Source of the DNA: Bacteroidia bacterium
GTDB taxonomy: Bacteria > Bacteroidota > Bacteroidia > Bacteroidales > Azobacteroidaceae
DNA: 39,903 bases
Reading direction: 5' to 3'
Assembly: GCA_025996895.1 (NCBI GenBank)
Contig: BNTW01000019.1
Coordinates: 1-39,903 of the forward strand
The notes under the pieces are model-generated. The model had not been told where the DNA came from, ran no database searches, and saw only the letters and a list, made by a program, of their open reading frames with translations. Shown here one piece after another: positions 10,398-39,903 of this stretch. Every line of letters begins with the position of its first letter. Position 1 is the first letter of the stretch. The translations under genes were made by a program, and so were the position numbers.

Positions 10398-10405
10398 TAT
10401 CTTTG
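10398..10405 (+). promoter_or_regulatory. -7 box before the kinase/regulator genes
   Basis: TATCTTTG lies 22 bases before the ATG at 10428. No clear TTTG is present at -33. No further promoter box is visible before the first beta-propeller gene, so this may drive the kinase, regulator and following genes. Confidence 0.5.
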
Positions 10406-10427
10406 TACGATAATTGTTAAAAGTTTG

Positions 10428-11459
10428 ATGCTGCCTTTTTTCGATAAAAATATATCGAACAAAACATTGATAATTGCGAGTCTGATATTGAGCGCATTTA
10501 TCATTTATCCCAAGATTATTGAATTACCTTGGGAATTATCGCGTATTACAAACCAGAGTGAGAAAACCGAACACATACTCTTTTTTATTTACCGGTATTC
10601 CTTTTTTTGTTTGTTTACCTGGATACTTTTAACAACCAATATCCGCAAACACAATACCTTGATTTTCACTAAACGATTAGTAACAACTTTTTTAATTACC
10701 CTCGTCGCCTATCTTATCTATTTGCTTATCTCTCTGGTTATCAGCAAACATGCTGATTGTTTTACCGGATTGCTGCTTTTCCAGTTTGTGGTGGCTTGTC
10801 TGCTTTGTGCGCTTACGGGACATGTTTTTGCAATGTATTTGGAACAGCGAAAGCGGGAGATGGAAATTGAAAAACTAAAAACGGAAAACCTGCAAAGCCG
10901 TTGCGAAGCGCTTGCCAATCAAATAAATCCGCATTTCTTTTTTAATTCACTGAACGGATTGACGGCGCTAGTCCGTAGCGACAAAAAAAGCCAGACACTG
11001 AAATATATTAATGAACTTTCCTCTGTATTCCGGTACATCCTTCAAAGTGATAAAAAAGGACTTGTGCCGTTGAGTGAAGAGTTGAAATTCTTGGAATCGT
11101 TCCGTTATTTGCAGGAAATCCGTTATGCGGACAAATTCCGGTTTACCATTAACGTACCCGAAGAAAAGAAAAGCAAATGGATACCGGTATTGTCGCTGCT
11201 TCCTCTGATTGAGAATATTGTAAAGCACAACATGATTGACAGCGAAAATCAGATGGATGTAGCGGTGTTTATGAACGAACAGGATGAATTGGTCGTATCC
11301 AATCCCATTCATGAAAAATTAGATAAGGCTGATAAAAACGGCATTGGACTCGCCAATTTGTCAGACCGTTTCACGCTATTGCTCAACAAAAAAATCAGGA
11401 TAGAAAACAAAAACGGATTTTTTCAGGTGTATTTACCCTTAAATGATTATATCGTATGA
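10428..11459 (+). CDS. LytS/YpdA-type sensor histidine kinase
   Basis: A membrane kinase of the His_kinase (PF06580) group. Four hydrophobic segments fall near residues 10-28, 45-65, 82-106 and 113-138. A short coiled linker (QRKREMEIEKLKTENLQSRC) leads to the phosphoacceptor motif ANQINPHFFFNSLNGL near 167-182. The ATP-binding part has LLPLIENIVKHN (N box) near 255-266 and NGIGLANLSDRF near 303-314. A TTG codon directly before ATG 10428 is not needed. No extracytoplasmic sensor domain is present, so the signal is probably sensed by the membrane part. The stop overlaps the regulator start (ATGA), which fits translational coupling of a kinase-regulator pair. Confidence 0.92.
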   Translation: MLPFFDKNISNKTLIIASLILSAFIIYPKIIELPWELSRITNQSEKTEHILFFIYRYSFFCLFTWILLTTNIRKHNTLIFTKRLVTTFLITLVAYLIYLLISLVISKHADCFTGLLLFQFVVACLLCALTGHVFAMYLEQRKREMEIEKLKTENLQSRCEALANQINPHFFFNSLNGLTALVRSDKKSQTLKYINELSSVFRYILQSDKKGLVPLSEELKFLESFRYLQEIRYADKFRFTINVPEEKKSKWIPVLSLLPLIENIVKHNMIDSENQMDVAVFMNEQDELVVSNPIHEKLDKADKNGIGLANLSDRFTLLLNKKIRIENKNGFFQVYLPLNDYIV

Positions 11460-12208
11460 AAGTGTTGATTGTAGAAGATGAAACGGCCGCTTACGAAAAT
11501 CTGAAAAGCATTATTTCGGAGATTGATTCTTTCATTGAATGTTTGGGACATACGGAAAGTGTGGTTCAAACCGTTCGATGGCTGGGCAACCATCCGGCGC
11601 CCGATTTGATTTTTATGGATATTCATCTTTCCGATGGTTCGGCATTCAATATTTTTTCGTTGGTAAACATTGAAACACCTATTGTATTTACAACCGCTTA
11701 CGATGAATATGCCATTGAGGCTTTTAAAGTCAACAGCATTGATTACCTGCTGAAACCGATAGAATTGGATGCCGTGGCCTACGCCTTGGAAAAATTCCGC
11801 AAGTTCAGTAACCGGGATATTGTCAGCTATTTAAGCAGGTTGCCGCAATTGGCGCCTGTGGAAAAGTATCCCGAAAAAATACTGATTCCGGTCAATAATG
11901 AGTTGATTCCGGTGGATGTCAATCAGATATCCTATTTTTATACAACGGCTAATTGCACACGAATGGTATTGCGGGATAACACTAATGTCAATTATATGAG
12001 GCCCTTAGATAGTATTTACACATCGCTTGACCCTGCTCTTTTTTTCCGGGCGAATAAGCAGTTTGTCATAGCCAAGAACAGTGTTAAAAAAATAACGGTC
12101 TGGTTCGACAGCCGGTTATTGATTACACTGGAAACCGATGTTCCCGAACGGGCTTATATCAGTAAGAACAAGGCCGCTCAATTTAAAAAATGGTTTACAG
12201 AAGGATAA
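11456..12208 (+). CDS. LytTR-family response regulator
   Basis: An N-terminal receiver domain (residues 1-120) has the acidic pair near 7-8 (VEDE), the phosphoacceptor Asp in LIFMDIHLSD near residue 54, the Thr of FTTAYDEYA near 80, and the Lys of YLLKPIEL near 100. The C-terminal LytTR DNA-binding domain covers about 143-245 (ILIPVNNELIPVDVNQISYF, MRPLDSIYTSLDPALFFRANKQFVI). It starts inside the stop codon of the kinase gene and ends 25 bases before the first beta-propeller gene. Its position suggests control of the redox locus that follows; this is inference, as no binding sites could be assigned. Confidence 0.93.
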   Translation: MKVLIVEDETAAYENLKSIISEIDSFIECLGHTESVVQTVRWLGNHPAPDLIFMDIHLSDGSAFNIFSLVNIETPIVFTTAYDEYAIEAFKVNSIDYLLKPIELDAVAYALEKFRKFSNRDIVSYLSRLPQLAPVEKYPEKILIPVNNELIPVDVNQISYFYTTANCTRMVLRDNTNVNYMRPLDSIYTSLDPALFFRANKQFVIAKNSVKKITVWFDSRLLITLETDVPERAYISKNKAAQFKKWFTEG

Positions 12209-12233: not shown

Positions 12234-13448
12234 ATGAAAAAGACATTTTTTTTAAGTTTAGGCCTGTTAGCCGCTATTGCATTACCGGCACAGGAAAACA
12301 TTCAATGGAGAGGAGACCGGACAGGTATTTACAAAGAAACCGGCTTGCAAAAATCGTGGGCGGAAGAAGGTCCGGCATTGCTTTGGAATTACGATGGATT
12401 GGGAGAAGGCCATTCGTCGGTTGCCATAGCTTCCGGCAAAATCTACGTAACCGGTCTGACAGAAGGGAAAGGATACCTCTATGTATTGGATTTGGAAGGT
12501 AAACTATTGAATAAAAAGGAATATGGCAGTGAATGGGACAAAAGCTACAACGGCACCAGAGGAACGGTTACCGTTGATGCCGGTAAAGTATATCTGATTT
12601 CCGGCATGGGCGATGTGGTTTGTTTCGACGAAAAAAACCTGGATGTTGTCTGGCAGAAGAACTTGCTGACGGAATTTGAAGCAGATAATATCACTTGGGG
12701 TATTTGCGAATCCCCGCTTGTTGTCGGCGAAAAACTGATCGTATCCCCCGGTGGACAAAAACACGGTATCGTTGCATTGAATAAAAATACAGGAGCGGTT
12801 ATTTGGAGCAGTCCGGGCGACGGCGATCTTTCCGCTTATTGTTCCCCGATCTATGTGAGCGACCAACAAGTGCCTCAGATAGTGACCATGATGGCCAAAC
12901 ATATTGTAGGAGTGGATGTTGCCACCGGAAAAAAATTGTGGTCGTATGAAAATATAAACAAAACCAATGTACATCCGAATGTGCCTGTCTATAGCGATAA
13001 TATGCTTTTATGTACCAGCGGTTACGGCAAAGGGTCTGTGATGTTGAGGTTGATTGACGGTGGTCGCAATGTAGAAAAAGTGTGGGAATCGTCCGAATTG
13101 GATTCACGCTTGGGCGCTATGGTAAAAATTGGCGATTATGCCTACGGATCGGGTGACAACAACCGGTTTTGGTTTTGCGTGGATTGGAAAACCGGTGAAC
13201 AAAAATACAAAGACAATCAATTCGGTATCGGCAACGTGATTGCCAACGTGACTGCCGATGACGCCATGCTCTATTGTTATTCGGACCGGGGCGATTTGGC
13301 TTTAGCGAAAGCAAGTCCTGAAAAATTTGATATTACCGGCAAATTCAAAATTACACTGGGAACAGACCAACATTGGGCGCATCCGGTAATCCACAAAGGA
13401 GCGCTTTATGTAAGACACGGAAATACATTAATGGCATACAAAATATGA
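12234..13448 (+). CDS. Secreted PQQ-like beta-propeller protein, tandem copy 1
   Basis: A signal peptide (MKKTFFLSLGLLAAIALPAQ) is followed by a beta-propeller of PQQ/BamB-like repeats. Blade motifs such as GKIYVTGL, GKVYLISG, ALNKNTGAVIW and VDVATGKKLW are visible. The mature protein starts with IQWRGDRTGIYKETGLQKSW, a WRG signature shared with the next gene and with the gene at the right edge of the window. Quinoprotein dehydrogenases use similar blades, but no specific PQQ or metal ligands could be assigned, so catalytic activity is not claimed. The gene follows the LytTR regulator with no visible promoter, and its stop overlaps the next ATG (ATGA). Confidence 0.85.
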   Translation: MKKTFFLSLGLLAAIALPAQENIQWRGDRTGIYKETGLQKSWAEEGPALLWNYDGLGEGHSSVAIASGKIYVTGLTEGKGYLYVLDLEGKLLNKKEYGSEWDKSYNGTRGTVTVDAGKVYLISGMGDVVCFDEKNLDVVWQKNLLTEFEADNITWGICESPLVVGEKLIVSPGGQKHGIVALNKNTGAVIWSSPGDGDLSAYCSPIYVSDQQVPQIVTMMAKHIVGVDVATGKKLWSYENINKTNVHPNVPVYSDNMLLCTSGYGKGSVMLRLIDGGRNVEKVWESSELDSRLGAMVKIGDYAYGSGDNNRFWFCVDWKTGEQKYKDNQFGIGNVIANVTADDAMLYCYSDRGDLALAKASPEKFDITGKFKITLGTDQHWAHPVIHKGALYVRHGNTLMAYKI

Positions 13449-14659
13449 AAAAGTTAATAGTTTTATTTTTATTTGCAAGTGTAGCAACAGGATTGTTTGC
13501 ACAGGAAAATTCTCAATGGCGCGGAAAAAATCGCGATGGTATCTATCATGAAACCGGTTTGCTGAAACAGTGGCCGGAAACAGGTCCTCAACTTCTTTGG
13601 AGTTTCGATGGCTTGGGCGAAGGACATACTTCCGTGGCAGCCGCCAATGATAAAATCTATATTACGGGAATGACCGATAGTATTGGCACGTTGTACGTGT
13701 TTGATGTACAAGGTAAATTATTGAATAAAAAGGCTTATGGCTTGGAATGGAATACGAATTGGAACGGTACGCGTTCTACCGTCAATGTGAATGACGGAAA
13801 ATTGTATATTTTTAGCGGACGAGGCGTATTGTCGTGCCTGGATGAAAAAACATTGAATGTGGTGTGGTCGAAAGATGTATTAAACGATTTTGACGGACGC
13901 AATATTATGTTTGGCTTGACTGAATCGCCGTTGATAGTGGATGATGTCATTTATATCACACCCGGCGGGGAAACTTATAATATGGTAGCTTTGAATAAAA
14001 ATACTGGCGAATTAATTTGGTCGTCCAAGGGCATCGGTAAACCTTCTACGTATTGTTCTCCTTTGTATATCAGCGGATTAGATATTCCTGTCGTTGTCAA
14101 TGCCATAGATAGTTGTTTGGTGGCGTTCAATGCCAAAACAGGCGAAAAGCTTTGGGATGTGGAACAGAAAAATCCGCATGGACACAGTCCGAATACGCCG
14201 TATTTTGAAAAAGGCTTGTTGTTCACCTCCAGTGGCGGCGGACTCGGATCCATGCAACTTCGCTTGACTCCTTGCGGTCACAATTTTGAGAAAGTTTGGA
14301 CAAATGAATTGGACAACAAAATGGGCGGTTTTGTCAAGATTGGCGATTATGTTTACAGTTCCGGAGAAAAAAACCGCTACTGGTATTGTGTGGACTGGAA
14401 AACCGGTGAAACCAAATACAAAGACAATCAACTCGGTGTCGGCAATGTGATTGCGAATGTGACCGGCAACGATGCCATGCTCTATTGCTATTCCGACAAA
14501 GGCGATTTGGCTTTGGTGAAAGCCACTCCGGAAAAATTCGATATTATCAGCAAATTCAAGATTACGCTGGGCACCGACCAACATTGGGCGCATCCGGTGA
14601 TATACAAAGGAGTACTATATGTTAGGCATGGAAATACTTTGATGGCGTACAAGATTTAG
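13445..14659 (+). CDS. Secreted PQQ-like beta-propeller protein, tandem copy 2
   Basis: A paralogue of the preceding gene. It has the same order: signal peptide (MKKLIVLFLFASVATGLFAQ), WRGKNRDGIYHETGLLKQW, and propeller blades with ALNKNTGELIW and FNAKTGEKLW. The last part (KFKITLGTDQHWAHPV to RHGNTLMAYKI) is almost identical to copy 1. The ATG at 13445 is chosen because it overlaps the previous stop and starts a clean signal peptide; the frame is open 24 codons further up but that part lies within copy 1. The pair is a tandem duplication. Role is unknown but it is likely periplasmic or surface-located. Confidence 0.87.
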   Translation: MKKLIVLFLFASVATGLFAQENSQWRGKNRDGIYHETGLLKQWPETGPQLLWSFDGLGEGHTSVAAANDKIYITGMTDSIGTLYVFDVQGKLLNKKAYGLEWNTNWNGTRSTVNVNDGKLYIFSGRGVLSCLDEKTLNVVWSKDVLNDFDGRNIMFGLTESPLIVDDVIYITPGGETYNMVALNKNTGELIWSSKGIGKPSTYCSPLYISGLDIPVVVNAIDSCLVAFNAKTGEKLWDVEQKNPHGHSPNTPYFEKGLLFTSSGGGLGSMQLRLTPCGHNFEKVWTNELDNKMGGFVKIGDYVYSSGEKNRYWYCVDWKTGETKYKDNQLGVGNVIANVTGNDAMLYCYSDKGDLALVKATPEKFDIISKFKITLGTDQHWAHPVIYKGVLYVRHGNTLMAYKI

Positions 14660-14766: not shown

Positions 14767-16182
14767 ATGAAACAGAAAACAACCATAGTAACGATATTCG
14801 TAGCGCTTCTCTATCTGAGCGTTATCGTCTGGTGGCATATTTATTCGCCACGGAAAGATTTCAGCGTACAGGCGCCCGGTGCGGATAATCGCCCGGAAGG
14901 TTTGGCGCGGAAAGCCAACGAAGTACTTATTGGTGAATATTTTATGCGATATGATGAAACGACTTCTTCCCTGACCGGGAAATGGAGTTCTTTCAGAGGA
15001 GCATCTTCTTCCAATATCGTCAAAACTTCCGACCCCATCCGAACAAGTGCGGAAGAATATCCTGTGCTTTGGAGCGTGGAAACCGGTGAAGGTCATGCCG
15101 CGCCGGTCATTTACAACGGACTGGTTTATTTCCTGGATTACGATGAATCGCTCAGTTCGGATGCCTTGCGCTGTTTCTCGTTGGAAAGCGGAAAAGAATT
15201 GTGGCGCCGTTGGTATCGCGTACCGATGAAGCGCAATCACGGATTTTCGCGGACAGCGCCCACGGTATCGGACGATTATGTGATTACCATTGGCCCGCAA
15301 GGTCATGTGATGTGTTGCGACCCGCTTTCGGGCAATTTGAAATGGTCGCTTGATATGCAGCAGACGTTTAAAACCGAAGTTCCGTTTTGGTACGCCGGAC
15401 AATGTCCTTATGTGGACGGAAATACGTTGGTTGTGGCTCCCGCCGGAGAAGAAGTTTTGTTGGCGGGGATTGATTGCACGACAGGAGAAATCGCCTGGCA
15501 AACGCCCAACACGCCCGCTTACAAGATGTCCCATTCTTCCGTCATGCAGATGACTTTGAACGGCAAAAAGACCTACGTCTATATAGGTGTCGGCGGCGTA
15601 TGCGGTATTTCTGCGGAAAAAGAAGATGCAGGAACTTTGTTGTGGGATGTTTCAAAATGGCAACCTTCCGTCATAGCGCCTTCGCCATTGCAATTGTCGG
15701 CAAACAGTATTTTCTTGGTGGCCGGATACGGTGCCGGCGGCGCCCTGTTGCGGGTGGACAAAGCCGGTGCAAAATGGACGGCATCTATAACCGACCAGTA
15801 CAAAGCGAACGAAGGTTTATCCAGCGAACAGCAAACGCCGATTCTTTACAACAATATGATTATTACGATCATACCCAAAGACGGCGGCAGTTTGCGCGGA
15901 AAAGTGGTTTGTTATTCTCCTTCGGATTTGCATAATCCGGTTTGGTCGTCCGGTGCAGACGAGCGGTTTGGCTTGGGACCTTACATGGTCATCAACGATT
16001 ATTTGTTTGCTTTCAAGGAAGATGGCGAACTCTATGTATATGGTATCAAGGCAAAAAGCATGGATTTGCTGAAACAACAGCGCATCATGGACGGCGAGGA
16101 TGCTTGGGGCCCGATGGCTTATGCCGACGGACGACTGATTGTCCGCGATGCGCATCACGTTGTTTGTTTGAAGATTGATTGA
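14767..16182 (+). CDS. Membrane-anchored PQQ-like beta-propeller protein
   Basis: The N-terminal hydrophobic segment (residues 5-24, TTIVTIFVALLYLSVIVWWH) is an uncleaved anchor or signal. It is followed by a linker and a beta-propeller starting at GKWSSFRGASSSN near residue 77. Blades contain CFSLESGKELWRRWY, CCDPLSGNLKW and IDCTTGEIAWQ. The ATG at 14767 is used; a TTG seven codons upstream lies inside the repeat and is unlikely. Several Cys residues (for example VMCCDP and GIDC) occur, but no CxxCH haem motif. It sits between hairpin repeats A and B within the redox locus. Function unknown; likely an extracytoplasmic partner of the Fe-S proteins nearby (inference). Confidence 0.82.
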   Translation: MKQKTTIVTIFVALLYLSVIVWWHIYSPRKDFSVQAPGADNRPEGLARKANEVLIGEYFMRYDETTSSLTGKWSSFRGASSSNIVKTSDPIRTSAEEYPVLWSVETGEGHAAPVIYNGLVYFLDYDESLSSDALRCFSLESGKELWRRWYRVPMKRNHGFSRTAPTVSDDYVITIGPQGHVMCCDPLSGNLKWSLDMQQTFKTEVPFWYAGQCPYVDGNTLVVAPAGEEVLLAGIDCTTGEIAWQTPNTPAYKMSHSSVMQMTLNGKKTYVYIGVGGVCGISAEKEDAGTLLWDVSKWQPSVIAPSPLQLSANSIFLVAGYGAGGALLRVDKAGAKWTASITDQYKANEGLSSEQQTPILYNNMIITIIPKDGGSLRGKVVCYSPSDLHNPVWSSGADERFGLGPYMVINDYLFAFKEDGELYVYGIKAKSMDLLKQQRIMDGEDAWGPMAYADGRLIVRDAHHVVCLKID

Positions 16183-16251: not shown

Positions 16252-17241
16252 ATGGATATATCAAGAAAAAAGTTTTTACGCACTTGCGGCTCTATCCTTG
16301 CCGGAGGTACGGTAGTAGGCGTATCCGGTGTATTGTTAAATAAGTCGCATTCGGAAGGTGCAGGCATTTCGTCAGGTGACCTTCGTCCGGCGGAAAATGG
16401 TGCGTTTGCTTCTCCTTACCGGCAAATTGCTTCGTTTGCTACGCCCGGCATTGTGGAAGGTTTTGAATTGCACAACGACCAATTGTATGTCGTGGCATCG
16501 AATCTTGTTTCGGTATTCGACCACGCCGGCAAATTGCTTCACCGCTTTTCGTCCGGCGAAACCATCCGGGATATTGCCGTCAATGACAACGGTATTTACA
16601 TTCTTTACACAACAAAAATCAAAGTGTTTTCCCACGAAGGCGAATTGCAAAGAGAGTGGGAGGCATGCAGCGAACTTTCCGGCTATTGCTCGATGGTTTT
16701 GGCGGAAGATTATGTATTTGTAACCGATGTAGTAAATAAAAATATCTGCAAATATACGAAAGACGGCGATTTTGTTCAATTTATCAACAGTCCGAACGAT
16801 TTTATTATTCCGAGTTATACCTTTGCCATTGAGTATGTTAATGGTGTTTTGTATTGTTCCAATTCTGGCAGGCATCAGGTAGAAAGTTATACTTTGGACG
16901 GAGAATATCTCGGTACTTTCGGCAAAGCAGGAGGCGCTCCCGGCTTGTTTACCGGTTGCTGTAATCCAGTTTATCTGACTTATACGGACAATGGCGAAAT
17001 CATTACCTCCGAAAAAGGCGACCCGCGAATCAGCTGTTACGGAAGCGACGGACAATTCAGAAACATATTGCTCGACAGTAAATCGCTGGGAGGAGGAAAT
17101 TCCGCGTATGATGTGAAAGTACAAAAAGACAAGATTTTCATCGCCGGAAAAAACAAAGTTTCCGTTTTCCGTTACGACGAATCGTTGGCGGCAAATGCCG
17201 CTTGTTCGACCTGCGGAATCAGTTGTCCGTTGAAAGTTTAA
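16252..17241 (+). CDS. Exported NHL-like beta-propeller with Cys-rich tail
   Basis: The N-terminus MDISRKKFLRTCGSILAGG resembles a Tat-type signal (S-R-K-K-F-L with a hydrophobic core after it), almost the same as in the next gene. The body, about residues 60-315, has six-bladed NHL/6-bladed propeller features (LVSVFDHAGKLLHRF, KIKVFSHEGELQREW, QVESYTLDGEYLGTFGKAG). The tail AACSTCGISCPLKV carries three Cys (C-x2-C-x3-C), which might bind a metal or join a cluster. The final LKV and stop are made by the start of hairpin repeat C. It probably works with the polyferredoxin encoded next. A DNA- or sugar-binding role seems less likely given the context. Confidence 0.75.
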   Translation: MDISRKKFLRTCGSILAGGTVVGVSGVLLNKSHSEGAGISSGDLRPAENGAFASPYRQIASFATPGIVEGFELHNDQLYVVASNLVSVFDHAGKLLHRFSSGETIRDIAVNDNGIYILYTTKIKVFSHEGELQREWEACSELSGYCSMVLAEDYVFVTDVVNKNICKYTKDGDFVQFINSPNDFIIPSYTFAIEYVNGVLYCSNSGRHQVESYTLDGEYLGTFGKAGGAPGLFTGCCNPVYLTYTDNGEIITSEKGDPRISCYGSDGQFRNILLDSKSLGGGNSAYDVKVQKDKIFIAGKNKVSVFRYDESLAANAACSTCGISCPLKV

Positions 17242-17348: not shown

Positions 17349-17915
17349 ATGAACGAAAATAAAAATAATCCGATTACGCGCAAGAAATTTCTGCGAATGT
17401 GCGGCTCCATAGTGGCGGGGGCGGCTGTCGTATCCGTATCGGGCGTGATGGCGAAGAAAGCGTTTTCGGGACAAGCAAGTTACTTTTGGCAGATAGACCC
17501 CAGCAAATGTACTTTTTGCGGTCGCTGTGAAACGGATTGCGTACTTCCTGTTTCGGCGGTAAAATGTATCCATGCCAACCGGGTTTGCGGCTATTGCGAT
17601 TTGTGCGGCGGATACTATCGCGCCAATGTGAAAGACTTGAATACAGCTGCCGAAAATCTGCGGTGTCCCACCGGCGCCATTGCCCGTAAATTTGTAGAAG
17701 ACCCTTATTTTGAATATACAATAAGCGAAGATTTGTGCAACGGATGCGGAAAATGCGCAAAAGGATGTAATTCTTTCGGCAACGGCTCGCTCTATTTGCA
17801 AGTCAAACAGGAATTGTGCAAAGGCTGTAACGAATGTAAAATAGCGAAAGTTTGTCCTTCAGGAGCAATACAGCGCGTTCCGATGGAGAAAGCGTATATG
17901 CTGAAAGATGCATGA
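17349..17915 (+). CDS. Exported 4Fe-4S polyferredoxin (NapG/MauM-like)
   Basis: The N-terminal ITRKKFLRMCGSIVAGA is a Tat-like signal near-identical to that of the preceding gene, pointing to export of a folded cofactor protein. Cys clusters for three to four 4Fe-4S centres are visible: CTFCGRCETDC near residues 56-66, CGYCDLC near 82-88 with a later CPTGAI, CNGCGKCAKGC near 130-140, and CKGCNECKIAKVCPSGAI near 158-175. It likely carries electrons outside the inner membrane between the membrane Fe-S protein (18779-20095) and the propeller proteins. Direct partners are inferred from gene order only. Confidence 0.85.
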   Translation: MNENKNNPITRKKFLRMCGSIVAGAAVVSVSGVMAKKAFSGQASYFWQIDPSKCTFCGRCETDCVLPVSAVKCIHANRVCGYCDLCGGYYRANVKDLNTAAENLRCPTGAIARKFVEDPYFEYTISEDLCNGCGKCAKGCNSFGNGSLYLQVKQELCKGCNECKIAKVCPSGAIQRVPMEKAYMLKDA

Positions 17916-24254: not shown

Positions 24255-24285
24255 TGTTTTGTAATTGTATAAAATATATGGTTTT

Positions 24286-25199: not shown

Positions 25200-25236
25200 T
25201 TTTTTCTGCAAAAGAGCATATATTCATTTTATTGTA

Positions 25237-25244
25237 TATCTTTG
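25237..25244 (+). promoter_or_regulatory. -7 box before the HTH gene
   Basis: TATCTTTG at 25237-25244 lies 77 bases before the ATG at 25321 in an AT-rich spacer that otherwise shows nothing I can assign. No good -33 TTTG is present. Confidence 0.5.
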
Positions 25245-25320
25245 CAGTGCATAAAAATTTATTTTTCCGCACACTTAAACTATTTATAATAAGTGAATTA
25301 AATACAAATTATTCCAATTT

Positions 25321-25964: not shown

Positions 25965-25989
25965 AAGAGTGTATGTAAATTTAATTTTG

Positions 25990-26041
25990 TATTTTTGCAC
26001 AATGACACAGATTGATGTCATTATGCAAAATAAATGTCATT
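25990..26041 (+). promoter_or_regulatory. Promoter and TGTCATT operator of the AbiE-like pair
   Basis: TATTTTTG (25990-25997) is a -7 box. Directly after it come AATGACA (26001-26007), TGTCATT (26016-26022) and TGTCATT (26035-26041). The first two form a 7-base inverted repeat with an 8-base spacer, and the last two are direct repeats 19 bases apart. The start codon follows at 26051. The layout fits repression by a DNA-binding antitoxin. Confidence 0.6.
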
Positions 26042-26050
26042 ATATTATAA

Positions 26051-27741: not shown

Positions 27742-27782
27742 AAATATGGCAGAAAATAAATACTTAAAATAAAGGAATTAAT

Positions 27783-31106: not shown

Positions 31107-31113
31107 TAACACA

Positions 31114-32876: not shown

Positions 32877-32936
32877 AGTTTAAAGTTTTATGTTTAAAGT
32901 TTCAGATTTCAGGTTTCAGGTTTTAAGTTTTAAGTT
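32870..32936 (+). repeat. Heptamer repeat, half copy F (stop and start codons)
   Basis: AAGTTTA/AGTTTCA/GGTTTCA units run from the stop codon of the Fe-S gene through the ATG at 32890 into the first 15 codons of the lipoprotein gene. No right arm is present. Confidence 0.85.
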
Positions 32937-34062
32937 GTTATTGCTTTGCTCTTTTATCTTTGTGGGGTGTAGCAACAGTCTGCAATCTTCCAAAGAAAGC
33001 GCTGAGCAAAGTTGGCCTTTGTTTCGTGGCGATGCTCAGTTTAGCGGATACACCGACATCAAACTCGCCAAAAATCCGGTTTTGTTGTGGACATATAAAA
33101 CGGATGCAAGAGTGGCCGGCTCGCCGGTGGTATATAATCAAACCGCTTATTGGTGCGATAAACGCGGACAGATTTACGGCGTGGACATCAACGGCAACCG
33201 GTGTTTCAATTACGATTTTCAGACAGCCGTGGAAGCTACGCCGATGATTGACGATTCCATCCTTTACATCGGGCGAATAGACGGATTTATGAGCGCCGTT
33301 TCTTTGGCAAGTCAGGATACGGTTTGGAATTTTGAGACTTTCGGGCAAATATCCGCCTCGCCCAATATCGGAACATTCAAAGATAAACAGGCTGTCATTT
33401 TCGGCAGTTACGACAATTACCTTTATTGTTTGGATAAAAAAACAGGCGAAGAAATCAACCGTTTTGAATCGGGATATTACATCAACGGAGCGGTGGCGCT
33501 TTGGAAAGACTGCTTTATTTCGGGCGGTTGCGATGCCTGGTTGCGAATCATCAACGGTACTACAGGCATTTCATCCGATTCCCTGCAATTGGATACTTAT
33601 ATTCCGGCATCGCCCGCCATCAACGGCGATTATTGTTACATTGCCGACCATTCGGGAAATGTGTACGAAATCGTCATCCAAAACGACAAAATCAGTCAAT
33701 CGAAAAAAATCGTGGAAGCAACGGACGATAGCGGAACCTTTGTGTCGGTTCCCGCGCTATCTTCTAACACGCTTTACATCCTTTCGGACGACCGGAATTT
33801 GTACGCCATTAATCGCAAAGACGGCAGTGTCCGGTGGAAATATTTGCAAAAAGGCGATTCCGGTGAAAGTTCGCCGGTGGTGTGTAACGACAAAGTTATT
33901 TCCTGTTCCAAAAACGGATTTATTTCCCTGTTGGATGCGTCCAATGGCGAATTGTTGTGGGAATATGATACCGGCGAGCAAATCACGGCAAGCCCGGCGG
34001 TCATCAAAGGGTATTTTTATTTATTGACGGCGAAAGGAACATTATTTTGTTTCAAAGTTTAA
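32890..34062 (+). CDS. PQQ-like beta-propeller lipoprotein
   Basis: A lipoprotein signal with lipobox FVGC (Cys at residue 27) leads to a propeller starting at SWPLFRGDAQFSGY. Blades include YGVDINGNRCFNY, YCLDKKTGEEINRF, YAINRKDGSVRWKY and SLLDASNGELLWEY. It resembles BamB-type and other PQQ-like propellers. Residues 1-15 (MFKVSDFRFQVLSFK) are encoded by heptamer repeat, so the N-region of the signal peptide is derived from the repeat. No other start codon before the hydrophobic core is better. The last residues FKV and stop again come from a repeat unit. Probably attached to a membrane on the periplasmic side as a partner of the redox proteins (inference). Confidence 0.85.
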   Translation: MFKVSDFRFQVLSFKLLLLCSFIFVGCSNSLQSSKESAEQSWPLFRGDAQFSGYTDIKLAKNPVLLWTYKTDARVAGSPVVYNQTAYWCDKRGQIYGVDINGNRCFNYDFQTAVEATPMIDDSILYIGRIDGFMSAVSLASQDTVWNFETFGQISASPNIGTFKDKQAVIFGSYDNYLYCLDKKTGEEINRFESGYYINGAVALWKDCFISGGCDAWLRIINGTTGISSDSLQLDTYIPASPAINGDYCYIADHSGNVYEIVIQNDKISQSKKIVEATDDSGTFVSVPALSSNTLYILSDDRNLYAINRKDGSVRWKYLQKGDSGESSPVVCNDKVISCSKNGFISLLDASNGELLWEYDTGEQITASPAVIKGYFYLLTAKGTLFCFKV

Positions 34063-34080: not shown

Positions 34081-34470
34081 ATGGCAACAATAAATTGTTT
34101 TGAAGATTTAGAAATCTGGAAAATGGCTCGTGAATTTTGTAACGATGTGTTTAGAATTACAAACTACGAGAATTTTTCAAGAGATTTTCGTATGAAAGAT
34201 CAAATAAAAGCCTCGTCAGGTTCAATTATGGATAATATTGCGGAGGGGTTTGAACGAAATGGAAATAAGGAGTTTGTACAATTTCTTTATTTTTCAAAAG
34301 GCTCATGTGGAGAATCGAGGTCACAATTATATCGAGCCTTAGATTTCAAATACATTACAGAAGATGAGTTTATTGTGTTGAAAAATAAAACATTACAAAT
34401 ATCCCAAGCAATTGGTGGTTTTATTAAATATCTTAACAACTCAGAAATAAAAGGTACAAAATATAAATAG
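34081..34470 (+). CDS. Four-helix-bundle protein (S23 / 23S rRNA intervening-sequence family)
   Basis: The 129-residue protein matches the small helical family first seen in intervening sequences of 23S rRNA genes: CFEDLEIWKMAREFCNDVF, then MKDQIKASSGSIMDNIAEGF, KEFVQFLYFSKGSCGESRSQ and a final helix QISQAIGGFIKYLNN. Relatives include Avd of diversity-generating retroelements; no reverse transcriptase is present here. It is AT-rich, unlike its neighbours, and lies between two stretches of heptamer repeat, so it appears to have entered the locus as a cassette. Function unknown. Confidence 0.88.
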   Translation: MATINCFEDLEIWKMAREFCNDVFRITNYENFSRDFRMKDQIKASSGSIMDNIAEGFERNGNKEFVQFLYFSKGSCGESRSQLYRALDFKYITEDEFIVLKNKTLQISQAIGGFIKYLNNSEIKGTKYK

Positions 34471-34549: not shown

Positions 34550-35215
34550 ATGATTCGATTATCAGGTATTACAAAAACGTTTCCCGATGGGGAAAACAAG
34601 CAGAACACCGTTTTGCGTGGCGTGGAAATGGTGGTTTCCAAAGGCGATTTTGTTGCCATTGAAGGCGCTTCCGGTTCCGGAAAGACCACTTTACTTTCCA
34701 TTTTGGGCACACTCGTGCCACCCGATACAGGGAGTTATCTGTTGGACGGCAAAGAAATGTTGACTGCGGGCGTTGACCATTCGCTTGTCCGCAACCGGCA
34801 CATCGGCTTTGTATTTCAAGACCACCGTCTGATGCCGCAACTCTGCGTATTGGACAATATCTTGTTGCCCACTCTGGCATACAGTTCCAAAGCCAGTATT
34901 TCGCAAACGGAATATGCCCGTCAATTGATGGATATGACAGGGATTGCCTCGCTTGCTTATCAATATCCGCAAACCTTATCCGGTGGAGAAGCCAGTCGTA
35001 CCGCTCTATGTCGCGCGCTCATCATGAAACCGTTATTGCTTCTGGCAGACGAACCTACCGGACAATTGGATGCGGAAAATGCCAAAAATATTGCTTCTTT
35101 ATTGACAAAAATCAATCAAGAACTCGGAACAACAATCGTCATGGTTACACATTCAAAAGAAACGGCAGCAGTGGCGAAAAGAATCCTGACACTTAAAAAT
35201 GGTTTGATAGTTTAA
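34550..35215 (+). CDS. ABC transporter ATPase (LolD/MacB-type)
   Basis: A cytoplasmic ATPase of 221 residues. Walker A GASGSGKTT is near 39-47, the Q-loop FVFQDHRLMPQ near 88-98, the signature LSGGEASRTALCRAL near 144-158, and Walker B LLLADEPTGQLDAEN near 164-178, with a switch His in VMVTHSKET. The type drives mechanotransmission permeases such as LolCDE and MacB rather than importers. The permease gene starts 5 bases later, so the two form one transporter. Confidence 0.92.
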   Translation: MIRLSGITKTFPDGENKQNTVLRGVEMVVSKGDFVAIEGASGSGKTTLLSILGTLVPPDTGSYLLDGKEMLTAGVDHSLVRNRHIGFVFQDHRLMPQLCVLDNILLPTLAYSSKASISQTEYARQLMDMTGIASLAYQYPQTLSGGEASRTALCRALIMKPLLLLADEPTGQLDAENAKNIASLLTKINQELGTTIVMVTHSKETAAVAKRILTLKNGLIV

Positions 35216-35220: not shown

Positions 35221-38200
35221 ATGAATTTAATAAAATCAAATATCACTTTTTACTTCCGCTATTATAAGCTGATAGCCCTCGCCGCCGGGATAATGGTTGC
35301 CGTTATTGTGGGAAGCCTTGTGGTAGGCGAATCCGTCCGTTCCACTTTGGTGCAGCGCGTTTACGAACGATTGGGAAATACGGAAACCATCCTGTTTTCC
35401 AAAAATTCTTTTTTGGAAAGTTCGGTTGTCGATAATCCGTTATTTGAAGGACAAGCCCAAGGCATTTTGTTAAGCAACGGATTCATTTCCGATGCCGGTC
35501 GATTAATTCCGGTAATGGTTTGGGGCGTGAACGACAAAAATATTCCGAAAGGCGGTGCAAAAATTAATCCTGCATTGGTGGAAAATATCACCCAAGGAAG
35601 TGAAATCGTTTTGCGTTTACCCGCCACCGGATTAGTTCCTTCCGGTTCTTTATTCGTAACCGACAATTACACAACCAGCGCACGACTGTCATTATCCGGA
35701 ATCCTTGATGCGGAAAACGGCGGAAACATGAATTTAAAAAACGAACAAATCATCCCATACAATATTTTCGTCAATCGGGAAGAATTGGCTGCTATATTGG
35801 ATATTGAAGGAAAAATCAATTTAATTTTATGCGAAAAACCGGTTTCATACGCTGATTTTTCTGAAATTTGGCAACCGTCATTATCGGGATTAAATGAAAA
35901 AAAATACGACGAATTTACCGAAATTACCTCCGACCGGGTTTTTATTCAGGGAGATGCCGTACAAATGCTGTATGAAAATCATCCCAATGCCAACCGGCTG
36001 TTTTCTTATTTGGTTAATTCCATTGATGCCAATAATCAATCCATTCCCTATTCATTTATCACCGCTGCCGACCAATACAAAGGGCGCAGATTACAGGACG
36101 ATGAATTCATTCTTTCGGATTACACCGCCAAACGCATCGGAGCAAAGTTAAACGACTCTATTCGTTTAACTTATTATGTTTCAAAAGATTTGAAAACCTT
36201 GTCGGTAGATACGCTTTACGGTCGAGTAGGACAAATCGTTCCCTTGAGCGAATTATTCGCTGATAAAACCCTGAGCGCGAACTTTCCCGGACTTTCGGAT
36301 GTGGAAAAATGTACCGATTGGGACAGCGACCTTCCCATCGACATGAGTCTGATTACCAAGGAAGATGAAGACTATTGGGCATTATACAGAACAACACCCA
36401 AAATCCTGATTCCGTACAGCGCCGTTTATGAAAAATGGGGCAACGCCTACGGCAATGCAACCGCCATACGGATTAATAATGACCAACCCGAAACTCGAAA
36501 CCCGAAACCTGAAACCCAAAACTTAAAACCCGCCATGTTCGGCATCGAAATCATTCAACCTAAAGAAGCCGGATTAAACGCCGCCCGCAATGGCGTCGAT
36601 TTTTCTTCCCTTTTCCTGTCTTTAGGATTTTTCATCATTTTATCAGCTATATTGTTAATGCTTGTTCCCCTCTCAGAAATGATTTACGTGCGGCGCAAGG
36701 AAATAGAGCTTTATTCGGCCTTAGGCTATACAAAAAAACGCATTGTCGGCATGCTTTGGTGCGAATCGGCTCCGGTTGTATTCGTCGCATCCTTGATAGG
36801 AATTGTCGTGGGTTTGCTATATACTTGGCTGATACTGATTTTGTTGGGAAGCCTTTGGAAAGGCGCAACTCATACCGGCGGTTTTGTGCTTTTTCCCAGC
36901 GCCGGGACTGTTTTTTTTGGTTTTATTGTTGGTGTCGCTATTGCTTTGATTTTGCTTTGGATTAGTTTAAAGTTTCAGGTTTCAGGTTTAAAACTTAAGA
37001 GGCTTAAGAAATTTAAGGGACTTAAGGAGCTTAAGAAATCATTGGTGATTGCTCTGATTTTCACCTTAGCAACGCTGATTTTCATCTTTTGGGCTACTGC
37101 TAATGCGACCGGCCTTTTTGTTGTTGCCGGATTTTTATTAATCGTAACGGCTGCTTGTTGGGGCGATTATCTTATTGTGTGGCAGGGAGCGGCAACAAAA
37201 CCTTTTGACACTTCCAAATTGATTTGGGCCAATCTCTACGCCAATCGAAAACGGACGCTTTTGTCCTTTTTCTCCCTGACTGCAGGCGTGTTTATCGTCT
37301 TTTCCGTAGGATTGAACCGCAGGGGATTTGTTGACAATGCGCAGTTGGCGAGCGGGACAGGCGGTTATTCGTTGTGGTGCGAGAGTAGCGTTCCCATTTA
37401 TCACAATATGTCCACGCCGGAAGGACGAAAAAAGCTGGCTTTAAGCGATTTGCCGGAAGATACGCGCATCATCCAGATGACTCGTTACAGTGCTGATGAT
37501 GCCAGTTGCCTGAATTTGAATAAAGTATCGCAACCAACCGTATTGGGAGTAGATATGGATTTGCTGAAAACGACTGATTTTGAGATTGAAAAACATATTT
37601 ATCCAGAAGAGAAATCGATCTTTGAAATTTTGAAAAAGTTTCAAGTTTCAAGTTTCAAGTTTCAAGTGGAGGAACCCGAAACTCGAAACCCGAAACTCGA
37701 AACCCAAAACCCAAAAGTTTATCCGGTACTGATTGACGAAACCGTGCTGATGTGGAGTCTGATGTTGAATTTGGGCGATACCATTTCGTACGAAAGCGGG
37801 ACAGGGAAACGAATTTATCTGCAATTGGCGGGTACGCTGAAAAACTCCATTTTTCAAGGGAATGTGCTGATGGATAAGCAATTGTTTTCCGAAATATGGG
37901 GAGAAATTACCGGTAGCGAAATTGCATTAATAAAAGTCAATGAGACGGAAACGGAGGAAACCCGAAAACTTTTATCGCAGGCTTTGAACGAATACGGTGT
38001 GCGAGTGACGACCACCGCCCAACGGCTGAAAGAATTTAACAGTGTCACGGATGCCTATCTGAATATCTTCCTGACCTTGGGAGGATTGGGTTTGTTGCTG
38101 GGAATCATGAGTTTCATCATTGTCATACGGAAAGACCTCCTTTCGCGGAAAGAACAAATATCCATCTACCGCTCGTTGGGATTTACGGATAAAAAAATAG

Positions 38201-38424
38201 AACAAATGCTTGTCGGAGAAAACCGGATTGTTCCCTTGTACGCCATTGCCATCGGCGTGTTGGGTTCATTAACCGGTGCGGTTTCCGGCTTATCGAACAT
38301 CAGCATTTGGATTTGGCTTACAACAATCGTATTAACAATTTTACTAACTTTGTCGGTGATTATTTTTATTTATGAAAATATTATTTATTGTACCCGGTTC
38401 GGGCGACCCGTTTTATTGCGGTAA
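35221..38424 (+). CDS. FtsX-type ABC permease, large, with repeat-derived inserts
   Basis: The 1067-residue permease has a first membrane helix near 15-40, a large extracytoplasmic domain to about 450, a helix bundle from about 460 to 660 (FSSLFLSLGFFIILSAILLM), a second helix-in/large-domain unit, and three helices at the C-terminus (IFLTLGGLGLLLGIMSFIIV). It thus looks like two FtsX/MacB halves in one chain. Three repeat-derived inserts are present: PETRNPKPETQ near 423-436, KFQVSGLKLKRLKKFKGLKE near 582-602, and a full hairpin copy near 806-832. They lie in loops, so the protein may still fold. It may move lipoproteins or peptides; substrate unknown. Its end overlaps the next gene by 53 bases. 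Confidence 0.88.
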   Translation: MNLIKSNITFYFRYYKLIALAAGIMVAVIVGSLVVGESVRSTLVQRVYERLGNTETILFSKNSFLESSVVDNPLFEGQAQGILLSNGFISDAGRLIPVMVWGVNDKNIPKGGAKINPALVENITQGSEIVLRLPATGLVPSGSLFVTDNYTTSARLSLSGILDAENGGNMNLKNEQIIPYNIFVNREELAAILDIEGKINLILCEKPVSYADFSEIWQPSLSGLNEKKYDEFTEITSDRVFIQGDAVQMLYENHPNANRLFSYLVNSIDANNQSIPYSFITAADQYKGRRLQDDEFILSDYTAKRIGAKLNDSIRLTYYVSKDLKTLSVDTLYGRVGQIVPLSELFADKTLSANFPGLSDVEKCTDWDSDLPIDMSLITKEDEDYWALYRTTPKILIPYSAVYEKWGNAYGNATAIRINNDQPETRNPKPETQNLKPAMFGIEIIQPKEAGLNAARNGVDFSSLFLSLGFFIILSAILLMLVPLSEMIYVRRKEIELYSALGYTKKRIVGMLWCESAPVVFVASLIGIVVGLLYTWLILILLGSLWKGATHTGGFVLFPSAGTVFFGFIVGVAIALILLWISLKFQVSGLKLKRLKKFKGLKELKKSLVIALIFTLATLIFIFWATANATGLFVVAGFLLIVTAACWGDYLIVWQGAATKPFDTSKLIWANLYANRKRTLLSFFSLTAGVFIVFSVGLNRRGFVDNAQLASGTGGYSLWCESSVPIYHNMSTPEGRKKLALSDLPEDTRIIQMTRYSADDASCLNLNKVSQPTVLGVDMDLLKTTDFEIEKHIYPEEKSIFEILKKFQVSSFKFQVEEPETRNPKLETQNPKVYPVLIDETVLMWSLMLNLGDTISYESGTGKRIYLQLAGTLKNSIFQGNVLMDKQLFSEIWGEITGSEIALIKVNETETEETRKLLSQALNEYGVRVTTTAQRLKEFNSVTDAYLNIFLTLGGLGLLLGIMSFIIVIRKDLLSRKEQISIYRSLGFTDKKIEQMLVGENRIVPLYAIAIGVLGSLTGAVSGLSNISIWIWLTTIVLTILLTLSVIIFIYENIIYCTRFGRPVLLR
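36486..36532 (+). repeat. Heptamer repeat, half copy I (in frame)
   Basis: CCGAAAC/CTGAAAC-type units encode QPETRNPKPETQNLKP within the first extracytoplasmic domain of the permease, close to the second membrane helix. Confidence 0.85.
36966..37035 (+). repeat. Heptamer units plus CTTAAG repeat (copy 2) in permease
   Basis: AGTTTCAGGTTTCAGG units are followed by C/TTTAAG hexamers at 36994, 37003, 37012, 37021 and 37030, an exact 9-base period with five units, as at 20555-20596. They encode the basic LKxLKxLK loop between two membrane helices. Confidence 0.85.
37638..37716. repeat. Heptamer hairpin repeat, copy K (full, in frame)
   Basis: Four GTTTCAA units (37638 onward), centre GTGGAGGAACCC, then CCGAAAC/TCGAAAC units. 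It encodes KFQVSSFKFQVEEPETRNPK and the following LETQNPK within the permease, with no frame break. Confidence 0.88.
38345..38352 (+). promoter_or_regulatory. Possible internal -7 box before the GT4 gene
   Basis: TAACTTTG lies inside the 3' end of the permease gene, 20 bases before ATG 38372. No -33 TTTG is found at the right distance, so this is weak. Confidence 0.35.
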
Positions 38425-39637
38425 TTGCTTTCGCGATAACCTGCAGGCCAATGCTTTGCGCAAGGCAGGACATGATGTGGTGATCATGCCGCTCTATTTG
38501 CCGTTGAAAAACAACTCCTTTTTGGCGGATACGCCTTTGTTTTTTCCGGCCACTTCACTCTATCTGTCGCAGAAATACTTCCGCAACAAGTCCATGCCCC
38601 GTTGGATGGAAAAGATACTCAATTCGGATTTTTCGCTTAGTATGGCGGCTTCATTTTCGGGAACGACTTCGGCGGAGGGCTTGGAAGACATGACTCTCTC
38701 CATGATAAAAGGCGATGATGATGTTTTTCTCCGGCAAGTGCATACCCTTATCCACTGGATAAAAGAACATGAGCATCCGGACATTATCCACCTTTCGAGC
38801 AATCTGCTCATTGGGATTGCCAAAGCCATCAAACAAGAAATTGATATCCCTGTCGTTTGTTCCCTTCAGGACGAAGAAATTTGGATAGATACCCTGCGAA
38901 AGGAAGATGCCGATGCCGCGTGGAAGGGAATTAGTGAAAACACCGGCTATATCGACCATTTTGTCACGACAAGCCGGTTTTACAAACAGATTATAACGCG
39001 CAAGTTTCCGCAGATAACCCATATAGATGTCATTTATCCCGGTTTGAAAACGGAGAAATATGCTTCGGAACAGTATCCAACAGAACCTGTTATCGGTTTC
39101 TTTTATCGCATGAACGAAATCAACGGCTTGCATCTGTTGGTAGAAGCTTTTGTTAAACTAAAGAAAGAGAATCGAGTAAATGGCCTCAAACTGAGGATAG
39201 GCGGTGGATATACCTCGGCTGATAAAAAATTTCTGAAGAAAATGTACCGTATGCTTGCACCTTACGGAAAAGATGTACATTGGTGCGAAACGTACAAACT
39301 GAAAGACCATGCGGCTTTTTACAAGGAAATAACCGCCATTTGTGTTCCGGTAACTTTTCCCGAAAGTGTAGGACTCTATCTTTGCGAAGCTTTTGCGGCA
39401 GGGCGTCCCGCTATTGAACCGGCTACCGGTTCCTTTCCCGAAATAGTGGGTGATGCGGGAGTACTGTATTCACCCAATTCCCCGGATGCACTGGCTGATG
39501 CTATTGAAAAGTTGCTGACTACCGACGGACTGTGGGAAGAATGTCGCAAGAACGCTTTGCATTTGTCGCACACTCGCTACAATGAAACCATACAAGCTTC
39601 CGAATTATACAATGTATATAAACCTCTAATAAAATAA
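38372..39637 (+). CDS. GT4 family glycosyltransferase
   Basis: A GT-B fold glycosyltransferase of 421 residues. The N-terminal part starts MKILFIVPGSGDPFYCGNCF with a glycine-rich loop, and the C-terminal part shows IGFFYRMNEINGLHLLVEAF near 224-243, LRIGGGYTSADKKF near 263-276 and VPVTFPESVGLYLCEAFAAGRPAI near 327-350 (the E-x7-E motif that binds the sugar nucleotide), then PATGSFPEIVGDAGVL. The GDPFYCGNCFRDNL start is characteristic of a Bacteroidota subgroup. It overlaps the permease by 53 bases and is 4 bases from the next propeller gene, so it belongs to the same unit. The acceptor is unknown; glycosylation of a secreted partner is one possibility. Confidence 0.9.
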   Translation: MKILFIVPGSGDPFYCGNCFRDNLQANALRKAGHDVVIMPLYLPLKNNSFLADTPLFFPATSLYLSQKYFRNKSMPRWMEKILNSDFSLSMAASFSGTTSAEGLEDMTLSMIKGDDDVFLRQVHTLIHWIKEHEHPDIIHLSSNLLIGIAKAIKQEIDIPVVCSLQDEEIWIDTLRKEDADAAWKGISENTGYIDHFVTTSRFYKQIITRKFPQITHIDVIYPGLKTEKYASEQYPTEPVIGFFYRMNEINGLHLLVEAFVKLKKENRVNGLKLRIGGGYTSADKKFLKKMYRMLAPYGKDVHWCETYKLKDHAAFYKEITAICVPVTFPESVGLYLCEAFAAGRPAIEPATGSFPEIVGDAGVLYSPNSPDALADAIEKLLTTDGLWEECRKNALHLSHTRYNETIQASELYNVYKPLIK

Positions 39638-39641
39638 TACG

Positions 39642-39903
39642 ATGAACATAATGAAAAGACTCGGGTTGACAGGCATATATGCTATTGCTCTGTGTTTATA
39701 TTCCCACTTGGCCATGGCACAAACTCCATTCGGTTGGAGAGGCGCTGCTCGCGACGGCATTTATCATGAAACCGGATTGCTGAAATCCTGGCCCGAAGGC
39801 GGTCCTCAATTGTTATGGGAAAATACGGATGTAGGAAAAGGCTTTTCGAGTCCCATGGCAACGAATGGAAAGGTTTACATCAACGGTTTGGACAAAGACG
39901 GTG
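39642..39903 (+). CDS. PQQ-like beta-propeller protein, 5' part (cut by window end)
   Basis: Only the first 87 codons are in the window. The signal peptide (LGLTGIYAIALCLYSHLAMA) is followed by FGWRGAARDGIYHETGLLKS and WPEGGPQLLW, closely matching the tandem propeller pair at 12234-14659 (WRGKNRDGIYHETGLLKQWP). The first blade starts with NGKVYINGL. The ATG at 39651 is an alternative start three codons on. It shows that the propeller family brackets the whole redox locus. Confidence 0.87.
   Translation, partial: MNIMKRLGLTGIYAIALCLYSHLAMAQTPFGWRGAARDGIYHETGLLKSWPEGGPQLLWENTDVGKGFSSPMATNGKVYINGLDKDG

Follow-up and report, generated by a model that had tools for sequence, protein, structure and literature searches.

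Enzymes of the Bfu family have been defined by six clusters in their BfuB and BfuC subunits. The accessible text of the paper that describes them (PMC9304861) reports that clusters B2–B5 are missing in non-bifurcating homologues, that the His at the B2 site is absent from non-bifurcating HydB homologues, and that the enzymes are reversible; 17 BfuB clades have no assigned function there, and its main text does not mention NapH, NosR, or pyrroloquinoline quinone (PQQ). For Stn, the authors place bifurcation in the StnAB module, report zinc in the linker, and assign StnC residues 102–565 to a GltD-like flavin adenine dinucleotide (FAD)/NADPH fold (accessible sections of PMC10482914). Here, we describe a gene block in a Bacteroidia bacterium (family Azobacteroidaceae) in which what appears to be a Bfu core lies beside genes for membrane and exported Fe-S proteins and β-propellers. 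The window analyzed is the entire contig BNTW01000019.1 (C19; 39,903 bases) of assembly GCA_025996895.1 (3.1 Mb in 258 contigs, 97.7% complete). G000 denotes its genome, and other G and L numbers denote genomes and loci of relatives.

We propose, at about even confidence, that the block encodes a Bfu-type membrane-linked electron-transfer complex whose third partner is a NapH-like protein with an exported polyferredoxin, ending in periplasmic propellers. At the level of sequence, the proposal is carried by a conserved gene block, the Bfu ligands, a missing FAD/NADP(H) domain, a Tat-type (twin-arginine translocation) leader in a genome that also encodes TatC, and a single open reading frame (ORF) that fuses polyferredoxin to NapH. 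The genes of interest, from 10425 on, all lie on the + strand. An earlier note on this DNA had given the same positions and single strand, which the ORFs bear out, and its family namings agree in essence with Pfam/NCBIfam scans:

10425..11459, +, LytS-type histidine kinase, accessory (PF06580, 4.1e-23)
11456..12208, +, LytTR response regulator, accessory (PF04397, PF00072)
12234..13448, +, PQQ1, exported PQQ_2-type propeller (PF13360, 7.4e-24)
13445..14659, +, PQQ2, tandem duplicate of PQQ1 (PF13360, 4.5e-20; 300-nt repeat, 82% with PQQ1)
14767..16182, +, PQQ3, propeller with N-terminal anchor, candidate periplasmic reaction site (model predicted local distance difference test, pLDDT, 88.7)
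16252..17241, +, NHL, NHL-type propeller with Tat-like leader, GCCNP and SEKG motifs, and C-terminal CxxCxxxC tail (model, fold matches)
17349..17915, +, PFd, polyferredoxin, predicted exported, 17 conserved Cys (Fer4 matches)
17949..18551, +, DUF3267 putative zincin, inserted, non-core (PF11667)
18779..20095, +, NapH, membrane Fe-S protein of NapH/NosR-like type, Fer4 and CxxxCP motifs two each (PF12801, PF00037)
20105..21865, +, PQQ4, propeller whose N-terminus has three hydrophobic segments (PF13360, 6.4e-32)
21867..24254, +, NuoEF, BfuC–BfuB fusion: NuoE, N-terminal 2Fe-2S, NuoF with flavin mononucleotide (FMN) site, C-terminal 2x[4Fe-4S] (PF01257, PF01512, PF10589, Fer4)
24265..31887, +, defence-type island, inserted, outside the redox block (family scans)
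31905..32876, +, NuoG, BfuA/StnC-type Fe-S subunit without FAD/NADP(H) domain (alignment to 9bov_A)
32890..34062, +, PQQ5, lipoprotein-like propeller (PF13360/PF13570)
34081..34470, +, 23S_rRNA_IVP four-helix protein, non-core (PF05635)
34550..35215, +, ABC ATPase (PF00005)
35221..38424, +, FtsX-type permease with two FtsX stretches (PF02687)
38372..39637, +, GT4 glycosyltransferase (PF00534)
39642..39902, +, PQQ6, beginning of another PQQ1-like propeller, gene cut by the contig end (70-nt repeat with PQQ1/PQQ2)

The same scans also read NuoG as a Fer2_4/GltD-N-like Fe-S protein, and they recover five complete PQQ_2/BamB-type propellers; the six propellers of the earlier note thus comprise five complete ones and a fragment cut at 39902. 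Its NHL-like propeller stands, since the model (pLDDT 88.9) matches NHL propellers, though the gene has no Pfam match. Its small spacers fail at 24265–31887, where the defence-type island lies between nuoEF and nuoG.

One core order, PQQ1(n)-PQQ3-NHL-polyferredoxin-NapH-PQQ4-NuoEF-NuoG-PQQ5-(GT4)-ABC-FtsX, recurs in many family labels, which is more than chance. The earlier note had made co-conservation across Bacteroidales its own refutation test; when it was run, the genes recurred together across family labels. Loci were collected from species genomes by exact peptide patterns of the window NapH, a sampling biased toward near relatives; named close relatives of NapH occur in Bacteroidia metagenome-assembled genomes (MAGs), for example MS502-39 (96% identity) and PG1894_26 (91%), and in Viscerimonas tarda (88%). 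Mangrovibacterium marinum and Carboxylicivirga linearis (L019, L067) are cultured relatives that carry the block. Among the resulting 59 NapH loci, raw presence was 55 for PFd, 50 for PQQ4, 49 for NHL, 44 for PQQ3, 39 for NuoEF, 35 for PQQ1, 32 for NuoG, 28 for PQQ5, 27 for ABC, 26 for FtsX, and 4 for the LytTR pair, with part of the misses due to contig ends. Counts restricted to loci with room (a crude 3.5-kb rule with score floors, + strand only) were 52/57 for PFd, 48/53 each for NHL and PQQ4, 43/50 for PQQ3, 37/46 for NuoEF, 34/48 for PQQ1, 31/42 for NuoG, 28/38 for PQQ5, and 25/35 each for ABC and FtsX. GT4 scored 0/10 in that set, where the 10-kb stretches and the query set mostly stop short of its position; a number of divergent genomes have it between PQQ5 and ABC, and it was found in L070, L072, L075, L078, L084, L085, L088, L089, L093, L098, and L101. 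PQQ1 copy number differs among genomes, with several copies in L087 and L101–L102. The LytTR pair adjoins the block in only the 4 loci just counted and is ruled out as core. The earlier claim that all listed genes form one system therefore stands for the Fe-S, propeller, and ABC genes and falls for LytTR.

The PQQ3 marker extends this distribution. At E ≤ 1e-60 it is present in 69/393 sampled genomes of the order, under 38 family labels, and in 1/296 genomes of a phylum-wide sample, namely the window's own. Among 58 relatives, 12 match at E ≤ 0.001; the G050 match is weak (49 bits, another propeller), leaving 11 that hold PQQ3. The matches form two clades, near (65–98% identity) and far (41–50%). 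The full order, PQQ1-PQQ3-NHL-PFd-NapH-PQQ4-NuoEF-NuoG-PQQ5-GT4-ABC-FtsX, is found in six of the nine far genomes with wide flanks (G434, G399, G445, G592, G671, and G621). Two small ORFs separate PQQ4 from NuoEF in G445, and the G592 polyferredoxin is evident in translation and absent from the ORF calls; the far genomes G581 and G547 lack GT4 and ABC/FtsX at the block, respectively. Five other far loci include three in which the block begins with PQQ1 and runs on until the contig or stretch stops, G047, which keeps it from PQQ3 on and has a different gene at the PQQ1 position, and G049, with PQQ3 only. In G671, a gene that by eye resembles a PAS-type sensor lies between PQQ4 and NuoEF (L097:18981-19901 and L098:7-1791).

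The cytoplasmic part of the block carries, by its Fe-S ligand set, what is probably a Bfu core of the HydBC/StnAB type. The earlier note had held that the locus matches no named system, a statement that fails for NuoEF/NuoG when set against the accessible text of PMC9304861. Ligands were compared among NuoEF ORFs longer than 700 aa and scoring above 850 bits, identical ones dropped, with near and far divided at 1050 bits. The C1 ligands C90/C95/C132/C136 are present in 36/36 near and 11/11 far sequences. The ligands C194/C195/C225/C229, C650/C653/C656/C696, and C742/C745/C748/C752/C772/C775/C778/C782, which cover B1, B3, B4, and B5, are present in 36/36 near sequences and each in 10 or 11 of the 11 far ones, the exceptions being one gapped row and one Gly at 656. 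At B2, C633/H720/C725/C730 hold in 36/36 near and 10–11/11 far sequences; the fifth position (671) varies, being Cys in 32 and Thr in 4 near sequences and Cys in 4, Thr in 4, Arg in 2, and Ser in 1 far. The B2 His aligns with 7q4v_B and 9n5u_B. The best PDB matches of NuoEF are 9n5u_B (NfnB), 9bov_B, 7q4v_B (HydB), and 8oh5_B, the last of which we take to be Sporomusa Stn, with a 1172-aa StnC. We infer that the Stn linker zinc site is the same site as B2; because zinc is reported there (accessible sections of PMC10482914), the metal at B2 may be disputed. Bifurcation itself is presumed, and given the ligand set, a plain NAD(H) diaphorase is probably too little and coupling to ferredoxin is expected.

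NuoG departs from the described subunits in a specific way. Its residues 3–178 align to 4–179 and residues 204–320 to 551–672 of 9bov_A, a chain whose layout resembles StnC, so that the stretch from ~180 to 550 is gone. Far-clade NuoG proteins of L101 (526 aa) and L092 contain Fer4_20 and Pyr_redox_2. The L101 protein retains the FAD domain, and its alignment jumps from ~289 to 425 of 9bov_A; the skipped stretch (about 290–424) is presumably the NADP(H) subdomain, as would be expected if only the NADP(H)-binding part had been lost. Because that part is gone from NuoG, NADP(H) is an unlikely third substrate by the Stn route. The neighbors standing where the NADP(H) partner would be are NapH and the polyferredoxin.

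The sequence features of both proteins would fit an electron path across the membrane. NapH retains 15 Cys in 4/4 far sequences and has nine hydrophobic windows, partly overlapping; a solved-structure search with it returned PsaC-like pieces only. The PFd cysteines are conserved in near sequences and in 3–4 of 4 far. The earlier note called its export Tat-like, which the leader motifs temper: among 56 distinct polyferredoxins the motif is RR in 43 and RK in 13, and the window copy has RK. TatC is encoded in G000, in 23/23 PQQ3-positive genomes, and in 16/20 negative ones (here and below, a PQQ3 match alone makes a genome positive, whether or not the whole block is present). Leader and genomic TatC together make PFd a candidate Tat substrate. 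In G671, a single 637-aa ORF fuses PFd to NapH.

Among the propellers, the strongest candidate for a periplasmic site is PQQ3, whose conservation is enzyme-like. Across 37 sequences it has 74 invariant columns, which include R149, R157-N158-H159, R163, H257, E355-Q356-Q357, D373, and R378 (counted from codon 14764). A solved-structure search with PQQ3 returned a single designed protein at 1e-5 and nothing else. Identity in the BamB, YxaL, and tetrathionate hydrolase rows of its fold search is 10–18%; the catalytic residue reported for tetrathionate hydrolase is Asp325 (accessible text of PMC10859504). With a divergent PQQ3 as query, 6242 homologue matches were scored; among the best 120 of these, the matches listed, the named ones are Bacteroidetes and include a PQQ3 relative in Labilibaculum manganireducens (P0177). 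A lead comes from that organism, which reduces Fe(III) and Mn(IV) oxides during glucose fermentation; its authors leave the responsible genes open, with a ferric reductase or an NrfHA-like cytochrome as possibilities, according to the accessible text of PMC5760507; its genome also encodes cytochromes.

NHL conserves H208, C236-C237, E254-K255, and R259 in near sequences and in 4/4 far, and its C-terminal Cys tail is present in 43/65. Its fold search returned generic propellers only, with no cofactor clue, and the solved-structure search returned animal or related NHL domains only. PQQ5 begins with FVGC, which we take to be a lipobox.

These parts suggest a route. In the cytoplasm, NuoEF (BfuC–BfuB) would use a single FMN for electron exchange with NAD(H) and ferredoxin, and NuoG, a BfuA minus its NADP(H) domain, would convey the electrons to the NapH-like Fe-S protein in the membrane. 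With NapH as carrier, they may then cross the inner membrane and reach the Tat-exported polyferredoxin, with the propellers, PQQ3 first, as the putative periplasmic site of acceptor reduction. The likely role would be electron disposal by confurcation of NADH and reduced ferredoxin in strict anaerobes; GT4 and ABC/FtsX perhaps serve to produce or transport a surface lipid or carrier required by the chain. The earlier note had drawn electron flow from NAD(H) to the outside: the anatomy fits its route via NapH and the polyferredoxin, and the outward direction, like bifurcation, PQQ3 as the reaction site, and the acceptor, goes beyond what the genes themselves display. If the proposal is true, fermenting Bacteroidales can move NADH and ferredoxin electrons over the inner membrane with neither cytochromes nor hydrogenase.

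Several observations weigh against this proposal. There is no recognizable terminal reductase or cofactor site, and the fold matches of PQQ3 are generic propellers (BamB, YxaL, tetrathionate hydrolase). The PFd–NapH fusion is known from one MAG only, and its topology is puzzling. A plain electron chain leaves no role for GT4 and ABC/FtsX. Propellers can stand apart from the Fe-S genes, because G492 has PQQ1-PQQ3-NHL side by side and no Fe-S genes adjacent to them (L099–L100) and G049 has PQQ3 alone, with none of the other block genes adjoining (L069). For PQQ3, PFd, NapH, PQQ4, and NuoEF, pairwise distances show correlations of 0.93–0.97 (42 loci) and of 0.77–0.92 (32 near loci), values that may mirror the species tree alone because the comparison has no control gene; L010/L076–078, L011/L079–080, and L035/L074–075 look like identical records, so a few duplicates enter these correlations and the gap counts given below. 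The block also does not track hydrogenase or Rnf, with an [FeFe]-hydrogenase in 13/13 far and 1/8 near PQQ3-positive genomes, and in the window's genus (g1) a strong RnfC match occurs in 1/5 PQQ3-positive and 7/20 negative genomes. The [FeFe]-hydrogenase is missing in 25/25 tested genomes of that genus, PQQ3-positive or not. The hydrogenase and RnfC counts form no pattern that would make the block a stand-in for a lost hydrogenase or Rnf, and we reject that idea.

One possible alternative, which we consider unlikely, would give GT4 and ABC/FtsX a purpose: the chain would feed electrons to a modification of a cyclized terpenoid or glycolipid outside the inner membrane, with GT4 glycosylating the product and ABC/FtsX moving it. 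These genes do belong to the block, and in many near loci a module directly upstream of PQQ1 encodes a 4Fe-4S protein, a radical SAM protein, a DUF116-polyprenyl synthase, an alpha/alpha protein, and a squalene-hopene-cyclase-like protein. The cyclase-like gene, whose product shows a DADD motif in its sequence, is found in 28/41 near loci with room and in one far genome (L091), so that some lineages connect a terpenoid with the block. Across 53 genomes the cyclase occurs in 8/30 PQQ3-positive and 0/23 negative ones, a difference at 0.0066 only if the genomes are independent, and kinship inflates the association. In 5 of the 8 positive genomes the cyclase is on another contig than PQQ3, and 2 of the 8 (G049 and G492) have PQQ3 apart from the Fe-S genes. 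Because 22/30 PQQ3-positive genomes, G000 among them, have no cyclase match, terpenoid synthesis is ruled out as the general purpose of the block. At L032:1486-3042 and in its relatives, the polyprenyl synthase carries its DUF116 domain at the N terminus, and the neighboring genes encode a radical SAM protein and a squalene-cyclase-like protein with the DADD motif, which makes up a Bacteroidales terpenoid cluster. In the far genome G581 a CobW-type GTPase (L091:7554-8774) lies between the cyclase module and PQQ1.

Electrons may instead flow inward, an account that we regard as rather unlikely. PQQ3 or NHL would oxidize a periplasmic donor, electrons would enter via the polyferredoxin and NapH, and the Bfu core would split them to NAD+ and ferredoxin. 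The reversibility ascribed to Bfu enzymes in the accessible text of PMC9304861 would permit this, and quinoprotein dehydrogenase structures do appear among the PQQ3 fold matches, at the lower ranks 30, 34, and 46. Model scores speak against it: PQQ1, PQQ4, and PQQ5 reach 33.9–58.2 against a cut-off of 480 for TIGR03075 (PQQ dehydrogenase), and PQQ3 scores 19.8 against 26.7 for Pfam PQQ. The BamB model TIGR03300 is likewise not reached by PQQ1, PQQ4, and PQQ5 (49.8–91.3 against 285.2). A PqqC search gave no match in 21 genomes, yet the control also had no match, so it is uninformative.

NosR and NosDFY serve nitrous oxide reductase maturation, and a comparable arrangement, in which a periplasmic propeller would have its metal or sulfur centre assembled or mended by the NapH-like protein together with the ABC transporter, appears improbable here. 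The block has an ABC transporter and propellers, the conserved His/Cys of PQQ3 and the Cys pair of NHL could hold such a centre, and NapH matches the NapH and NosR models, at 63.5 bits (TIGR02163) and 57.3 bits (NF046105). Those scores lie far below the respective cut-offs of 213 and 1000, the permease is FtsX-type, and the NapH family scans gave no match to a NosR-type FMN-binding domain.

An ordinary Hnd, Rnf, or complex I operon with propellers as chance neighbors would account for the NuoE, NuoF, and NuoG homologues and has next to no likelihood, being ruled out as the whole explanation by the conserved order (across family labels, NuoEF keeps these propellers, NapH, and the polyferredoxin as neighbors), the missing H-cluster domain, the lack of any RnfC_N match, and a scan of the genes in 10425–39637 that gave no domain of hydrogenase, Rnf, or membrane-arm Nuo type. 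The [FeFe]-hydrogenase domain PF02906 has 0 matches in G000, with a positive Thermotoga maritima control, which upholds, for the [FeFe] type, the earlier note's statement that no hydrogenase is present. RnfC_N has no match in G000, with positive controls, in a search that covered RnfC among the Rnf subunits.

Other genes in or around the block vary among loci. The DUF3267 gene is found in 0/59 loci and the 23S_rRNA_IVP gene in 1/59, plus L077. A metallo-beta-lactamase-fold protein with a signal-like start occurs in or beside the block in 10 loci. Its gene immediately precedes nuoG in L013, L015, L016, L017, L022, L031, L034, and L062, lying between nuoEF and nuoG in 7 of these 8, and is found at L078:9932-10795 and L082:19-1023, each near a TonB-dependent receptor beside the block. 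A related TonB-dependent receptor adjoins the block in L065.

The 7.6-kb island at 24265–31887 splits nuoEF from nuoG, genes separated by a gap of ≤99 nt in 35/43 measured loci (ORFs begin at the first M/V/L, so gaps may come out negative). Its genes include KilA-N/PDC-S22, PDC-M21A-like, TmtA (2.6e-257), and a metallophosphatase; two further genes are AbiEi/AbiEii-like by eye only, with no supporting match. A 59-nt repeat (85%) of the nuoEF 3' end, at 24187–24245 and 25129–25187, flanks the KilA-N gene and looks like the mark of an insertion, as if the insertion carried its own gene end. In G004, two metallophosphatases and a 1230-aa protein with a weak JetC match lie between nuoEF and nuoG (L077:630-14948). 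With different defence-type sets at the same junction in the window and in G004, the site looks like an insertion hot spot within the redox operon.

Repeats of 7/14-nt units (AACCCGAAACTCG), in both orientations, occupy spaces between genes and run in frame within nuoG, FtsX, and the NapH tail, where they encode peptides such as PETRNPKPETQ. They lie at:

14645-14780
16181-16255
17229-17348
20011-20103
32438-32495
32857-32936
34038-34080
34460-34543
36471-36542
36953-36995
37624-37730

We found no description of the block in the open-access literature. Its parts are of known kinds; the way they are put together, with a Bfu core linked to propellers and to a chain of exported Fe-S proteins, appears to be new. 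The block would supply a concrete anatomy for a new third partner of Bfu enzymes, namely that exported chain, and PQQ3, with its enzyme-like conservation, is a defined protein for purification and assay.

Compared with described systems, the closest likeness is in the core. As in StnABC and Nfn-Bfu (8oh5; 9n5u, NfnA/NfnB), NuoEF has the BfuB and BfuC domains and Fe-S ligands, and the two Fe-S parts of the StnC-like chain 9bov_A both have aligned counterparts in NuoG. Unlike those enzymes, BfuC and BfuB are fused here, the window's BfuA (NuoG) has no FAD/NADP(H) domain, and the core is joined to NapH, polyferredoxin, and propellers. HydABC (7q4v, 7p5h, 8a6t) shares a HydB-type subunit with the B2 His, a NuoE-type partner, and the 2Fe-2S N-terminus of HydA, whereas NuoG lacks the H-cluster domain and G000 lacks PF02906. 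Complex I differs in its membrane arm, for which no genes are among those scanned in 10425–39637. NapGH and NosR resemble the block in pairing a membrane protein that has CxxxCP and Fer4 motifs with a Fer4 protein predicted here to be exported by Tat; in this block, scores stay far below the family cut-offs, NapH has an extra C-terminal Fer4, and no NapC, NosZ, or FMN domain was seen in the block. From BamB, YxaL, and tetrathionate hydrolase, PQQ3 is set apart by its own invariant residues and its membrane anchor.

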